Part shown: positions 10,656 to 50,807 of the stretch, one piece after another
Numbering within the stretch: the stretch's first letter is position 1
Layout of the letters: each line of letters opens with the position of its first letter
From: Psychroserpens algicola
Lineage (GTDB): Bacteria; Bacteroidota; Bacteroidia; Flavobacteriales; Flavobacteriaceae
NCBI RefSeq assembly: GCF_014526325.1
Contig: NZ_JACNMJ010000001.1
Coordinates: 496,001 to 560,000, forward strand
Direction: 5' to 3'
DNA length: 64,000 nucleotides
The notes under the pieces: model-generated
Seen by the model: the letters and a program-made list of their open reading frames with translations, nothing else
Told to the model about the DNA's origin: nothing
Databases searched by the model: none
Made by a program: the position numbers and the translations under genes

Positions 10656-13562
10656 TTAGCCTACAATATTGACAATTTTTCCAGGAACCACAATTACTTT
10701 TTTAGGCTCGCGACCGTCTAACTGTGCGATTGTTTTTTCGTGAGCCATTACTGTTTTCTCAATCTCATCCTTGCTCATATCTAATGGTAATTCTAAGGTA
10801 AAACGCATTTTTCCATTAAATGAAATAGGATAGTTTTTACTACTTTCTACAAGGTGTTTCTCTTCAAACTTCGGAAATGAAACCGTCGAGATAGAGTCGT
10901 CATGACCAAGTCTGTTCCATAGTTCTTCAGCAATATGAGGCGCATAAGGAGAAATTAAAATCAGTAGAGGTTCAAGAATGGCTTTGCTGTTACATTTTTG
11001 AGCCATTAACTCATTAACGGCAATCATAAATGTAGACACAGAGGTATTGAACGAAAAATTCTCGATATCCTCTTCGACTTTTTTAATGGTTTTATGAAGC
11101 GTTTTCAGACTGTCTTTTGAAGGTTCGGTATCACTGACTTTTAAACCATTGTCATCAACATACAATTTCCAGAGTTTTTTAAGGAAACCATGCACGCCTG
11201 TAATTCCTGCGGTGTTCCAGGGTTTGTATTGCTCTAATGGTCCTAAAAACATTTCGTATAAACGAAGGCTATCGGCTCCATACTGTTCGCAAATCGCATC
11301 TGGATTGACAACATTGTACTTAGACTTCGACATTTTTTCGACTTCTCGACCTACTTTATAAACTCCATTTTCTAGTATAAATTCAGCATCAGAATAATCG
11401 TCACCAAATTCACTATCACTTTTTAAACCATCAATATCTAATTCATCTGAAGCATTAACATATTTTACTTTCACATGAATTGGAATCACATTTTTATCTT
11501 GTATAAGACCAGATGATATATAACGATTAGTCCCATCTTCCCTATAAACAAAAGCACTTGTCCCCAAAATCATTCCCTGATTTATCAGCTTTTTAAACGG
11601 CTCTTCAACATTGACGAAGCCTCTGTCTTTTAAAAACTTCACCCAAAAACGTGAGTAGAGCAAATGTCCTGTAGCATGCTCGCTTCCACCAATATATAAA
11701 TCGACACTCTCCCAATAATCAAGAGCTTCTTTACTGGCAAAAACCTCATCACGCATAGCGTCTTCCATATATCTAAAGAAATACCACGAGCTTCCTGCCC
11801 ATCCTGGCATAGTGTTGAGTTCTAAAGGAAAGACATGTTCATTATCAATCAATTCATTTGAGACCACACTATGAGTTGTCGTGTCCCAAGCCCAAACATC
11901 GGCACGTCCTAAAGGTGGCTCACCTTCTTCGGTTGGTAAGTATTTTTCAACTTCTGGCAAAACAATAGGCAGGTGTTTTTCATCTATCATTTGCGGCTTA
12001 TCATTGACATAATACACAGGAAATGGTTCGCCCCAATAACGCTGACGAGAAAACACCGCATCACGTAATCTATAGTTGGTTTTACCTTCACCTTGACCCA
12101 ATTGCTCCAATTCGTAAATGGCGCGTTTGGTAGCTTTTTTATAGTTCATTCCGTTAAGGAAATCACTATTCGCAAGTTTCACATTGTCTTTTGAAGCATA
12201 GGCCTCTTCAGAAATATCGACACCTTCAAAAATATTAGGAATCGGAATATCGAAATGCTTTGCAAAATCATAATCGCGTTGATCACCACACGGAACCGAC
12301 ATCACTGCACCTGTTCCGTAACCTGCCAATACATAATCACCAATCCAAATCGGAATTAGCTCTTTTGTAAACGGATGCTCTGCATAAGCACCTGTAAAGA
12401 CTCCAGAAATGGTTTTTACATCTGCCATACGATCGCGTTCACTTCGTTTTGCTGTGGCTTCTATGTAGGCATCGACGTCTGCTTTTTGAGCTTCGGTTGT
12501 AATTTTTGACACCAATTCGTGCTCTGGTGCCAGCGTCATAAACGACACACCATATATGGTATCAGGTCTTGTTGTGAAAACTTCGATCTTGTACGGATGA
12601 GATTCCGAAACAAGTTCGGAATGACGTTCACTTATGTCATGCTGAACGTGTTTCAGCATATCACTCGTCATGTTGACATTGAAAGTCACAGATGCTCCAA
12701 CCGATTTCCCAATCCAGTTACGCTGAATATCTTTTAATGAATCGGTCCAGTCTAAATCTTCAACATTATAATCAATTCCATGAAGTAAGCGTTCAGCATA
12801 GGCCGAAATTCGCATACTCCATTGGGTCATTTTTTTTCTAATCACAGGATGTCCACCACGTTCTGACACACCATTGACAATTTCATCATTAGCTAACACA
12901 GTTCCGAGCGCAGGACACCAGTTTACTTCGGTTTCGGCCAAATAAGTCAATCGGTATTTGAGTAAAATATCTTGCTGTTCTTCCGAAGCATAACCAGACC
13001 AGTCTTCTGCAGTAAAATACGTCACATCATCATCACAAGCAGCATTAATTTGTGCATTTCCTTCCGTTTCGAAATCGGTAATTAATTCTGAAATCGGCCT
13101 TGCCCTATTCGAATCTTTACAATAGTACGACTCAAACAATTGAATAAAAATCCATTGTGTCCATTTGTAATACTCAGGATTACTGGTACGTACTTCTCGG
13201 CTCCAGTCGAATGAAAACCCGATTTGATCCAGTTGTCGACGGTAAGTTTTTATATTGGTTTCGGTCGTAATTGCTGGATGCTGACCTGTTTGAATGGCGT
13301 ACTGTTCAGCAGGCAAACCAAAACTATCATATCCTTGAGGGTGTAAGACATTAAAGCCTTTATGACGTTTGTAACGCGCATAAATATCACTGGCAATATA
13401 ACCTAAGGGATGACCAACATGCAGCCCTGCTCCACTAGGATAAGGAAACATATCTAAGACATAGTATTTAGGTTTATCTCTATTGTTTTCGGCCTTAAAT
13501 GTTTGTTTATCGGCCCAATAGTTTTGCCATTTCTTTTCGATCTCGTTAAAATGATAACTCAT
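10656..13562 (-). CDS. leuS: Leucine--tRNA ligase with an in-frame palindromic-repeat insertion
   Basis: A 968-residue class I leucyl-tRNA synthetase. The HIGH-type motif is HVGHPLG (about residues 48-54) and the KMSKS motif is MSKSKYN in the C-terminal half. The CP1 editing domain carries the TTRPDT motif (in FTTRPDTIYGV), and the WSMRISAYAERLL segment is typical. The length exceeds the usual bacterial 800-880 residues, as is normal in this phylum. Oddly, just before FTTRPDT the protein contains about 25 extra residues reading MLKHVQHD and HSELVSES. These are the translation of two inverted palindromic repeats at 12601-12662, inserted without breaking the frame. Downstream on the same strand are two small envelope genes; divergent upstream is ftsX. 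Confidence 0.97.
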   Translation of the reverse strand: MSYHFNEIEKKWQNYWADKQTFKAENNRDKPKYYVLDMFPYPSGAGLHVGHPLGYIASDIYARYKRHKGFNVLHPQGYDSFGLPAEQYAIQTGQHPAITTETNIKTYRRQLDQIGFSFDWSREVRTSNPEYYKWTQWIFIQLFESYYCKDSNRARPISELITDFETEGNAQINAACDDDVTYFTAEDWSGYASEEQQDILLKYRLTYLAETEVNWCPALGTVLANDEIVNGVSERGGHPVIRKKMTQWSMRISAYAERLLHGIDYNVEDLDWTDSLKDIQRNWIGKSVGASVTFNVNMTSDMLKHVQHDISERHSELVSESHPYKIEVFTTRPDTIYGVSFMTLAPEHELVSKITTEAQKADVDAYIEATAKRSERDRMADVKTISGVFTGAYAEHPFTKELIPIWIGDYVLAGYGTGAVMSVPCGDQRDYDFAKHFDIPIPNIFEGVDISEEAYASKDNVKLANSDFLNGMNYKKATKRAIYELEQLGQGEGKTNYRLRDAVFSRQRYWGEPFPVYYVNDKPQMIDEKHLPIVLPEVEKYLPTEEGEPPLGRADVWAWDTTTHSVVSNELIDNEHVFPLELNTMPGWAGSSWYFFRYMEDAMRDEVFASKEALDYWESVDLYIGGSEHATGHLLYSRFWVKFLKDRGFVNVEEPFKKLINQGMILGTSAFVYREDGTNRYISSGLIQDKNVIPIHVKVKYVNASDELDIDGLKSDSEFGDDYSDAEFILENGVYKVGREVEKMSKSKYNVVNPDAICEQYGADSLRLYEMFLGPLEQYKPWNTAGITGVHGFLKKLWKLYVDDNGLKVSDTEPSKDSLKTLHKTIKKVEEDIENFSFNTSVSTFMIAVNELMAQKCNSKAILEPLLILISPYAPHIAEELWNRLGHDDSISTVSFPKFEEKHLVESSKNYPISFNGKMRFTLELPLDMSKDEIEKTVMAHEKTIAQLDGREPKKVIVVPGKIVNIVG
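12601..12662. repeat. Inverted pair of REP-like palindromes inside leuS
   Basis: Two hairpin units in opposite orientation. Unit A (12601-12625) has arms ATTCCGAA and TTCGGAAT around ACAAG and ends ATGAC. Unit B (12636-12662), read on the minus strand, has arms ATGCTGAA and TTCAGCAT around ACACG and also ends ATGAC. A ten-base spacer separates them. The units differ in the stem but every change is compensated so that pairing is kept. The same family occurs at 49739-49763 and, partly, at 25308-25326. Confidence 0.85.
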
Positions 13563-25260: not shown

Positions 25261-25307
25261 AATTCAATCGTTTACTTAATGTATGCTTAATCACTATATT
25301 CAAAATA

Positions 25308-25326
25308 TCCCGAAACAAGTTCGGGA
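25308..25326. repeat. REP-like palindrome in the greA leader
   Basis: Arms TCCCGAA and TTCGGGA around ACAAG, matching the core of the palindromes in leuS and at 49739. The flanking ATGAC is not present here, so it is a degenerate or partial copy. Confidence 0.55.
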
Positions 25327-25336
25327 CTAAAGAAAA

Positions 25337-48643: not shown

Positions 48644-49603
48644 ATGATTAAAAAATTGTCATTAATAGCACTTAGTTTATTATTAACCACATCTTGTGTT
48701 TCTAAAAAAATATATACCGATTTAGAAGATAAATATGCTAACCTGAAAAAAGAAAACCGAAAATTATCTGATGATAATGCCAGTTTACAAACTGCTTTAA
48801 ATAAAGCTAAAAATGAACTCAGCACTTTGCAAGATAACTATGACAATGCCATTGCTAACCGAAACCGATGGGAAGGCGAATATAAAGCTTTAGTTAACGA
48901 ACATAAAAACCTTGAAGATTCCTATGAGGCATTAGAAAAAAACAGTAGTGCTTCTATTGCTGCAAATTCAAAAAAGAATAGAGAACTACTGGCACAACTA
49001 GAAGCTAAAGAACAAGCCATATTAGCTGAAAACAGGAGACTAGAACAGCTTAAAAAAGAATTAGAGTCTAGATCACAGCGCGTTGCCGAATTAGAAAATG
49101 TGATTGCTTCTAAAGATGCAGCCATGACACAATTAAAGAATGCAATTTCTAAAGCCTTAACCAATTTTGAAGGTAAAGGCCTCACTGTAGAACAACGCAA
49201 TGGTAAAGTATATGTATCTATGGAAAATAAACTTCTTTTTGAATCTGGAAGCTGGGCAGTTGGCACACAAGGCAAACAAGCGGTAAAGCAGCTTGGTGAA
49301 GTTTTAGCTGATAACCCAGACATTGCTATTTTAATAGAAGGTCACACAGATAATGTCCCTTATAAAGGCAATGCACAATTAAGTGGTAACTGGGATTTAT
49401 CAACTAAGCGCGCCACAGCCATCGTTAATATATTGAGAGAAAATGCGAGTATTAACCCAGAGAATTTAACAGCAGCTGGTCGTGGTGAATTTGCACCAAT
49501 TGCCAGTAATGATACTGCTGAAGGTAAAGCCAAAAACCGTCGTATAGAAGTTATTTTAACTCCTAAACTGGATGAGATCTCTAAGCTTCTGAACGATATT
49601 TAA
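48644..49603 (+). CDS. OmpA-family lipoprotein with coiled-coil stalk
   Basis: A 319-residue lipoprotein. The lipobox is LLLTTSC (Cys18). A coiled-coil stalk of about 140 residues (DLEDKYANLKKENRKLSDDN through LEKNSSASIAANSKKNREL) leads to a peptidoglycan-binding OmpA domain: LFESGSWAVGTQGKQAVKQL, DIAILIEGHTDNVPYKGNAQ and RGEFAPIASNDTAEGKAKNR. The Asp and Arg of the latter two bind diaminopimelate. The protein should bridge outer membrane and peptidoglycan. It follows xth after 26 bases and ends with a hairpin. Confidence 0.9.
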   Translation: MIKKLSLIALSLLLTTSCVSKKIYTDLEDKYANLKKENRKLSDDNASLQTALNKAKNELSTLQDNYDNAIANRNRWEGEYKALVNEHKNLEDSYEALEKNSSASIAANSKKNRELLAQLEAKEQAILAENRRLEQLKKELESRSQRVAELENVIASKDAAMTQLKNAISKALTNFEGKGLTVEQRNGKVYVSMENKLLFESGSWAVGTQGKQAVKQLGEVLADNPDIAILIEGHTDNVPYKGNAQLSGNWDLSTKRATAIVNILRENASINPENLTAAGRGEFAPIASNDTAEGKAKNRRIEVILTPKLDEISKLLNDI

Positions 49604-49627
49604 TATCTAAAATCTTAACATACATTT

Positions 49628-49659
49628 AGATGGTTCTGTTTATATAAGCAGAACCATCT
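49628..49659 (+). terminator. Hairpin after the OmpA lipoprotein gene
   Basis: Perfect 11-bp stem AGATGGTTCTG/CAGAACCATCT with a ten-base loop, 25 bases after the stop. The 3' tail is only moderately T-rich, so termination may be incomplete. Confidence 0.55.
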
Positions 49660-49738
49660 TCTTATCTTTACATTTATAAAAAAACAAGGCAACTAGGTTC
49701 GCAGATGATAATCGAACCCTATTAAACTAAAATAATGA

Positions 49739-49763
49739 GATTCTGAAACAAGTTCAGAATGAC
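49739..49763 (+). repeat. REP-like palindrome just upstream of the aldo/keto reductase
   Basis: Arms ATTCTGAA and TTCAGAAT around ACAAG, ending ATGAC. Same family as the pair in leuS, with compensatory stem changes. It ends six bases before the start codon at 49770, so it may fold in the translation start region. Confidence 0.75.
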
Positions 49764-49769
49764 GATACT

Positions 49770-50807
49770 ATGAGATACACAACATTACCAAAAACCGATA
49801 TAAAAGTTAGTAAAATATGTCTTGGGACTATGACCTGGGGAAATCAAAATACTCAAGAAGAAGGGTTTGCCCAAATGGATTTAGCTTTAGACAAAGGTGT
49901 TAATTTCTTTGATTGTGCAGAATTATATCCTGTGCCAGCTACTGCTGAAACTTATGCAGAAACCGAACGTATTATAGGAAACTGGTTTGAGAAAACAGGA
50001 CATAGAGATAAAATTGTATTAGCTACCAAAATAGCAGGAACAGGTGATTATACAGCGCATATTAGAACTAATGGATTTAGTAAAGCAGCACTTCATGATG
50101 CTGTTCATAATAGTTTGAAGCGTCTCAAAACCGATTATATTGATTTATACCAATTGCATTGGCCAGAACGTGATACCAATACGTTTGGAATTAGAGATTA
50201 TACACATAATCCTAATGACCCATGGACTGATAATTTTAATGAAATTTTGCATAACCTCGATGAACTTATCAAATCGGGTAAGATTCGCCACGTAGGAATT
50301 TCAAATGAAAAAGCATGGGGAACCATGCGTTACTTAGAAGAATCTAAAACCAATAAACTTCCGCGAATGATTACCATTCAAAATGCGTATTCGTTATTAA
50401 ATCGTGTGTTTGAAGGTGATATGGCAGAAATAGCCATTCGTGAGGAGATCGGACTCTTAGCTTATTCGCCAATGGCATTTGGTGTGCTTTCAGGCAAATA
50501 TATTAATGGGACCGCAGGTGAAAATGCACGATTAAAGTTATTTCCGAGATTTTCGAGATATAGTAGTGCTAAGGCTACCGAGGCTACAAAACGTTACATG
50601 CAAATTGCTAAAGATCACAATATGACTTTAGCACAAATGGCTCTGGCTTTTGTAACCGACAGACCATTTATGACGAGTAATATTATTGGAGCAACTTCTT
50701 TAGAACAGCTGGAAGAAAATATTGATAGCGTCGATATTATACTAAACGATGAGATTCTTAAAGCAATTAATGACGTGCATGCAGAGATTCCTAATCCTGC
50801 GCCATAA
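49770..50807 (+). CDS. NADP(H)-dependent aldo/keto reductase (Tas/YajO-like)
   Basis: A 345-residue TIM-barrel oxidoreductase. It shows TMTWGNQNTQEEGFAQMDLA, the catalytic tetrad region (DCAELYPVP with Tyr, then LATKIAG with Lys) and LYQLHWPERDTNTFG with His. IRHVGISNEKAWGTM and GLLAYSPMAFGVLSGKYI are cofactor-side motifs, and TSNIIGATSLEQLEENI is the C-terminal NADPH-binding loop. The substrate is not evident. A palindromic repeat sits immediately before the start. The neighbouring lipoprotein gene follows after eight bases and may be co-transcribed. Confidence 0.93.
   Translation: MRYTTLPKTDIKVSKICLGTMTWGNQNTQEEGFAQMDLALDKGVNFFDCAELYPVPATAETYAETERIIGNWFEKTGHRDKIVLATKIAGTGDYTAHIRTNGFSKAALHDAVHNSLKRLKTDYIDLYQLHWPERDTNTFGIRDYTHNPNDPWTDNFNEILHNLDELIKSGKIRHVGISNEKAWGTMRYLEESKTNKLPRMITIQNAYSLLNRVFEGDMAEIAIREEIGLLAYSPMAFGVLSGKYINGTAGENARLKLFPRFSRYSSAKATEATKRYMQIAKDHNMTLAQMALAFVTDRPFMTSNIIGATSLEQLEENIDSVDIILNDEILKAINDVHAEIPNPAP

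Follow-up and report, generated by a model that had tools for sequence, protein, structure and literature searches.

How does the gene for an essential enzyme come to carry a pair of palindromes in frame, and is such an event unique to one lineage? The question is raised by leuS, which encodes leucyl-tRNA synthetase (LeuRS), in a stretch of 64,000 nucleotides of the marine bacterium Psychroserpens algicola (NCBI RefSeq assembly GCF_014526325.1, contig NZ_JACNMJ010000001.1, positions 496,001 to 560,000), here called the window. A sequence-only reading had noticed in this gene two hairpins that resemble repetitive extragenic palindromes (REPs), and had likened their layout to that of doublets moved by a transposase. 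This paper describes the comparison of the locus with its counterparts in relatives and the distribution of the repeat over genomes. The data revealed that one turn of LeuRS, the CP1 turn, has been occupied repeatedly by different repeat types and by a nuclease domain, which is what is new here; intragenic, in-frame REPs with a CGTC tag were already known. Genomes, contigs, and loci are designated by G, C, and L numbers, and G000 is the window's own genome (3.8 Mb, 17 contigs). The features of the leuS locus are as follows.

10656-13562, minus strand: leuS, leucyl-tRNA synthetase of 968 aa, an open reading frame (ORF) with a match to Pfam PF13603
12588-12674, minus strand: 29-codon segment NMTSDMLKHVQHDISERHSELVSESHPYK in place of a CP1 turn of about 6 residues, delimited by comparison with insert-less relatives
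12599-12626, plus strand: CGTC-REP unit 1, with arms 12602-12609 and 12615-12622 and loop 12610-12614
12623-12626: GACG tag of unit 1, reading CGTC on the leuS strand; unit 1 codes for HSELVSES
12627-12634: 8-nt spacer between both facing tags
12635-12660, minus strand: CGTC-REP unit 2, with arms 12639-12646 and 12652-12659 and loop 12647-12651
12635-12638: TGTC tag of unit 2, in plus-strand letters; unit 2 codes for MLKHVQHD

In the window's LeuRS, 29 residues (NMTSDMLKHVQHDISERHSELVSESHPYK) lie between FNV and IEVFTTRPDT with the leuS frame kept. Insert-less relatives mostly have 6 residues at this place, e.g., NDHDAV, which amounts to a net gain of 23 residues (a segment of 53 versus 30), and in the LeuRS of Thermus thermophilus the aligned blocks on either side (236 and 240) are separated by 3 residues. 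A REP-like doublet thus does lie in frame in leuS, as units at 12599-12626 and 12635-12660; the idea that it had simply been added was not upheld, as the pair replaces the turn. The editing domain PF13603 was matched at residues 281-483 (Pfam, E 7e-54). An AlphaFold2 model based on 42 sequences places the segment between the strands 286-297 and 325-330, with a predicted local distance difference test score (pLDDT) below 50 at residues 305-321. The insert is probably translated as a predicted flexible loop without a function of its own.

LeuRS sequences were collected without selection for an insert, i.e., from 22/23 same-genus, 10/11 same-family, and 8/23 same-order genomes and from 77/80 named loci (the remaining three being the same records), 117 in all. 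To these belong 20 regions that were added as their matches were broken, by which genus and family were completed, while the same-order genomes represent best unbroken matches and are biased against inserts. A turn with fewer than 4 extra residues was classed as short, and the REP-like class was assigned by a regular expression on the peptide. Under these definitions the CP1 turn was longer in 41/117 sequences and short in 76, the longer ones comprising 28 REP-like turns, 8 of other kinds, 4 with a DUF559 domain, and 1 (L112) with a DUF559 remnant; the G024 copy among the four DUF559 rows has decayed. Absence of the segment from relatives had been named as a point to check, and a unit of the window's type was found in 5/117 LeuRS (G000, G008, G009, G019, and G027), so that most relatives lack it. 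Head-to-head pairs are present in G000, G009, and G027 and mixed pairs in G008 and G019, and the REP-like inserts also include single units of several types; the repeat types distinguished are SSAVE, HSE.SEES, and EAKQS. The single units stand in place of the CP1 turn instead of extending it.

A tree was computed with FastTree after removal of the CP1 turn and of the variable stretch ahead of KMSKS. On it the REP label required at least 22 changes, 16 of which are forced by well supported branches. Shuffled labels required 25.4 changes on average, and 21/500 shuffles were as low, indicating that the label is little clustered; gain and loss of the label are not distinguishable on this tree. Well supported sister rows with different states include L094/L095 and L086/L088. 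Occupied in relatives by other palindromic repeats or a nuclease domain, the CP1 turn is a recurrent landing spot and not the scene of a single accident, and the filled, empty, and scarred leuS alleles form a natural set for testing target choice, the mobilising enzyme, and tolerance. Caution is warranted in that LeuRS length and domain content in the family vary for reasons that may be unrelated to charging. The searches made in an open-access library gave no paper on the recurrence of palindromes at one LeuRS turn.

Judged by its sequence, the leuS element is a head-to-head pair of CGTC-tagged REPs, carried by a Psychroserpens-type flavobacterium. Its CGTC and TGTC tags point towards each other at a distance of 8 nt, and both units have stems of 8 bp and loops of 5 nt; on the leuS strand the stem of unit 1 is followed by CTC, with no CCA tail. 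The 28-nt pattern matched the window twice and matched none of 100 shuffles. As described by Di Nocera, De Gregorio and Rocco (2013, PMC3733652), CGTC REPs have an unpaired CGTC (or TGTC/CCTC) tag at one hairpin end, a stem of 8 or 9 bp whose first pairs are A-T and T-A, a loop of 4 or 5 nt, and a short tail that is CCA in most, not all, of them. They occur in many dispersed copies with head-to-head dimers predominant, the Bacteroidetes are among the phyla that carry them, and intragenic copies include those in tRNA synthetases of three species (PMC3733652). The leuS units resemble them in the CGTC/TGTC tag at one end, in the geometry of family 2 (8-bp stem starting A-T, T-A, 5-nt loop; PMC3733652), in the head-to-head arrangement, and in that no transposase gene is flanked by the element in G000. 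Unlike most CGTC REPs as described there, unit 1 has CTC as its tail. The paper gives one case of REPs at about the same gene site, recB of two Xanthomonas species (PMC3733652); at the LeuRS turn, unlike in that case, several repeat types plus a nuclease domain recur across a bacterial family. CGTC REPs are reported there without a dedicated transposase (PMC3733652), hence the value of an essential-enzyme loop that is repeatedly occupied.

The leuS insertion is also comparable to the Rickettsia palindromic elements (RPEs) in that the reading frame of a housekeeping gene is preserved and the insert is missing from most relatives. RPEs were reportedly described by Ogata et al. in 2000 and 2002. 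They are palindromes of ~150 bp that lie in frame in genes and are read as extra peptide (PMC10969869, PMC3733652), and RPE-4 and RPE-6 were assigned to the CGTC REPs by Di Nocera et al. (PMC3733652). In the parts of these sources used here, RPEs are, unlike the repeats at the leuS turn, not reported to meet other repeat types at one site.

Many copies exist in the genome, in support of the sequence-only reading: the hairpin pattern had 55 matches in G000 against 0 for a reversed-pattern control (whole genome, up to 3 mismatches); all 55 copies were recovered again in context. Six ORFs contain seven of these copies in frame, two of them in leuS. The other hosts are a PrmC-type methyltransferase, a class I/II aminotransferase-family protein, a fused MeaB/methylmalonyl-CoA mutase, a 3-hydroxyacyl-CoA dehydrogenase, and a 324-aa ORF without a Pfam match. 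Two more copies (one degenerate) are situated near the N-terminus of DJ-1/PfpI-family and NamZ-type proteins, and several others overlap open frames only ahead of the likely start. Among these hosts, the comparison with relatives covered leuS. One copy outside genes lies in the window.

49737-49764, plus strand: single copy, intergenic, just upstream of an ORF

The ORF downstream of this copy presumably encodes an aldo/keto-reductase-like protein. The copy occupies the same place in G009, a related copy is present in G002, and it is not there in the other 10/12 relatives (by eye); the repeat content of the surrounding intergenic stretch differs between neighbours. At L208 (G009:C11), orthologous to window positions 49600-49770, the 49737 copy is accompanied by a second REP right after the upstream stop codon, which the window lacks, and the region in other relatives contains different repeats or none (by eye). 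A related palindrome, CCCGAAACAAGTTCGGG, is located at window positions 25302-25331; it is 70% identical to the leuS unit and similar to the genomic copies GATCCCGAAACGAGTTCGGGAT. Elsewhere in G000, eleven REP copies of two subtypes and opposite orientations are found within 1.2 kb (L339:1814-2990; G000:C8:793314-794490).

The paired stem change between the leuS copy and that at 49737, on which the idea of covarying subtypes had been built, is real (C:G in leuS, T:A at 49737). Across 37 distinct genomic copies, 97.0% of the stem cells were paired (88.1 ± 1.0 in shuffles) and 29 stem cells had a double change (6.9 ± 2.4 in shuffles), in agreement with such subtypes. In the pattern used for the scan most letters of the stem were prescribed, mismatches aside, while the most variable pair was unconstrained. 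Of the five measures of covariation, two were not above the shuffles, namely the number of stem pairs with a double change (3, reached in 101/500) and that of further pair types (9, reached in 354/500). The wider claim that paired changes preserve the stems holds between leuS and the 49737 copy and fails in the leuS copy of the sister genome G009, in which one stem pair is broken and uncompensated (TTCGGAAT versus TTCTGAAT) and one tag reads CCTC.

Inverted doublets are typical of REPINs, and the sequence-only reading had likened the leuS pair to doublets mobilised by REP-associated tyrosine transposases (RAYTs); for mobilisation by a resident RAYT, the presence of one Y1_Tnp match in the genome, at L022:1360-2046 (G000:C8), also speaks. 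REPIN/RAYT systems comprise GTAG REPs, short hairpins that often form inverted doublets and are spread over the genome (PMC6006769, PMC3733652), and the short dispersed hairpins and the inverted doublet in leuS are alike in this respect. The proposed link is nevertheless not supported, as the leuS tag is CGTC/TGTC and not GTAG, the perfect 28-nt inverted repeat around the only Y1 gene has no relation to the leuS element, and no co-occurrence was seen over 57 genomes scanned for one repeat family at up to 2 mismatches. At least 10 REP copies were counted in 13/57 genomes (own genome included), 9/13 of which gave no Y1_Tnp match, and 11 of the 17/57 Y1-positive genomes had no REP copy. G009 has 51 copies and the leuS insert as in G000, yet no Y1_Tnp match. 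A RAYT was rejected as the mobiliser on the Y1 flanks in G000 and the co-occurrence count, and mobilisation of the doublet by a resident RAYT is considered very improbable. The Y1-type ORF itself lies between the inverted repeats CCTCGCTAGCGCTCGTCTGTGACGAGTG, possibly a repeat family of its own.

A second LeuRS loop, between VVSN and PLELN, exceeded its modal length by at least 5 residues in 18 of the 117 rows that have both anchors (5 of 122 rows lack an anchor; 2/18 are loci selected for DUF559, hence 16/112 unselected). The extra residues are mostly REP-type peptides by eye, e.g., CHSERSEESH and SSAVETS, and in four rows SPPSGDLGG-like or similarly rich in proline and glycine. REP-type peptides before PLELNTMPGWAG in this loop were observed in L035, L041, L064 (several types in a row), L068, L077, L078, L086, L088, L104, L121, L122, L152, and L156. 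Among 30 MetH loci (three without anchor), those of G005, G012, and G019 have REP-type peptides in the turn before LRQQ, and those of G002, G003, G008, and G015 have other inserts there; a REP-type peptide is also present at this turn in G060 (L273). The MetH of G259 has two DUF559 domains, one at this turn and one in the B12 linker. In 30 loci (29 readable) no REP was found in the MetH linker, the sole long segment being the DUF559 of G005, and likewise none at the RecG site in 30 loci (29 readable), with one DUF559, four extensions of 10 to 12 residues, and the rest short. Short RecG-site extensions (e.g., GPASTLPNETEVN) in G008, G014, G016, and G031 (L321, L322, L329, and L332), at the place where DUF559 stands in other genomes, are possible scars.

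PF04480 matches were obtained in 142/299 genomes of the family, weak Vsr-like ones included, and none in G000 and G009. Besides many small free-standing ORFs, DUF559 copies occur in frame within LeuRS (L065, L067, L068, and others), MetH (L163, L170, L233, L234, L242, L265, and L273), RecG (L257-L260 and L262), and the N-terminus of HemD (L231, L241, and L267-L270). Host and DUF559 were confirmed by Pfam in one LeuRS, two MetH, one RecG, and one HemD, and the remaining loci were named by sequence resemblance. The LeuRS of G003, the MetH of G005 and G259, and the RecG of G302 gave host domains plus the nuclease models DUF559 and MTES_1575. Of 20 LeuRS copies, 16 of which were found by searching for DUF559, at least 85% retain the core DFVC..EVDG.IH....D..R, whereas that of G024 has lost it. 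DUF559 in the LeuRS, MetH, and RecG of relatives resembles inteins and homing endonucleases as a nuclease-type domain at recurrent sites of housekeeping proteins; it differs from inteins in that no splicing domain was detected by Pfam in the five DUF559-bearing proteins scanned (E <= 0.001 for G003 LeuRS, E <= 1e-5 for the other four).

Palindromes beside DUF559 copies were read in leuS and metH. Hairpins of at least 8 bp near 4/8 free-standing DUF559 copies belong to CCTC/CCTT-rich or AT-rich types and not to the CGTC-REP family, and the flank of the LeuRS-type DUF559, CCTTCCC..GGGAAGG, had 9 matches in 5/57 genomes (up to 3 mismatches). As a carrier of CGTC REPs DUF559 was rejected, only 4/65 DUF559 loci having a match to the window's REP family anywhere (up to 3 mismatches); in one of these, L163, the REP lies elsewhere in the same metH gene and not in the flank. 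The link between DUF559 and REPs consequently rests on shared sites only. No paper linking DUF559 with leucyl-tRNA synthetase was found in the open-access library searched.

It is likely that REPs are spread by some activity and persist where a surface turn tolerates the peptide of their open frame. The palindromes would land at many places, and selection would leave those insertions whose open frame extends a surface loop without harm to the enzyme; the CP1 turn, the second LeuRS loop, and the MetH turn would be such permissive places. Several observations weigh against this account. Tolerance alone leaves unexplained why different repeat types meet at one turn, and a forward [C/T]GTC tag opens 10/28 REP-like rows on Asn-Val (8) or Pro-Val (2) codons. 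A strict scan of 122 leuS (perfect arms of at least 7, tag required) gave 12 matches: 7 fall within the CP1 turn (with one listed twice), 1 precedes KMSKS, and 4 are elsewhere; intact tagged hairpins are therefore few, which implies that many REP-like rows are decayed, interrupted, or classed by peptide only. The AlphaFold2 model of the window's LeuRS is modest (mean pLDDT 67.7, predicted template modelling score 0.51). Between G000 and G009 the insert has a synonymous divergence of 0.134, compared with 0.833 for the remainder of LeuRS; between G000 and G027 the values are 0.435 and 2.5 (saturated), respectively, and the 30-codon blocks flanking the insert resemble the remainder of the gene. 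If the gene's own rate applied to the insert, changes as few as these would have a probability of 0.002 (G009) and 0.0007 (G027), calculated for ~16 synonymous sites with the changes rounded to 2 and 5 of 16. Such low divergence would not be seen in a neutral insert that predates the split, and the insert would so be younger than the split, renewed by conversion or re-insertion, or constrained as DNA; the stem pair broken in G009 speaks against strict DNA constraint. Retention of the hairpin for an action as RNA or DNA inside leuS (on mRNA stability, translation speed, or supercoiling) would fit the low synonymous divergence and the covariation of the stems across the genome. That the insert is absent or different in most relatives, and that the G009 copy has a broken stem pair and a CCTC tag, tells against it; the broken pair in particular weakens the case for selection on the hairpin in leuS, and such a role is given very little credence. 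Native LeuRS residues forming a palindrome by chance have virtually no probability, this reading being refuted by the absence of the residues in most relatives plus the 55 recurrences of the DNA in the genome.

The recurrence at one site could alternatively reflect targeted entry, with the turn as a target and not just a tolerant place: an enzyme would recognise the short motif [C/T]GT(C) that the Asn-Val codons form there, or the turn would be cut by a DUF559-type nuclease and REPs be copied in during repair. [C/T]GTC on those codons occurs in 12/28 REP-like rows versus 4/76 insert-less rows (in 2 of the 12, G000 and G009, the nearest unit has the other orientation), and [C/T]GT in 23/28 versus 36/76; moreover, the LeuRS CP1 turn and MetH site 2 are common to DUF559 and REP-type peptides, and single units replace the turn rather than lengthen it. 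The final C of the motif may, however, have been brought in by the REP, in-frame positions in a turn are few, the events may be non-independent, and [C/T]GT is found at those codons in 0/8 DUF559 rows. In addition, the MetH linker and the RecG site take DUF559 with no REP seen there, G000 and G009 are rich in REPs without a PF04480 match, and so few DUF559 loci match the window's CGTC-REP family. A target motif at the turn is only suggestive, and targeted entry is regarded as rather unlikely. More far-reaching is the notion that a small set of protein loops in Flavobacteriaceae are recurrent stations for palindrome-ended mobile DNA that is translated without splicing. Its full form would have a DUF559 nuclease between palindromes, and bare REPs and scars would be small forms at some stations; DUF559 or a relative would mobilise the REPs, and an allele with a REP or scar in the loop would be immune to it. 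The stations proposed are the LeuRS CP1 turn, the second LeuRS loop, the MetH turn, the MetH linker, RecG, and the HemD N-terminus; the odds are lowered a little because the RecG and MetH-linker stations showed no REP in the loci read, and this notion is held to be improbable.

Variation in LeuRS extends to the stretch before KMSKS (window residues ~670-700), which is hypervariable, being short in some species and replaced by unrelated longer segments in close relatives. It is unlike between G009 and G000, and the same place is variable in L063, L065-L070, L072-L074, and L077-L082.

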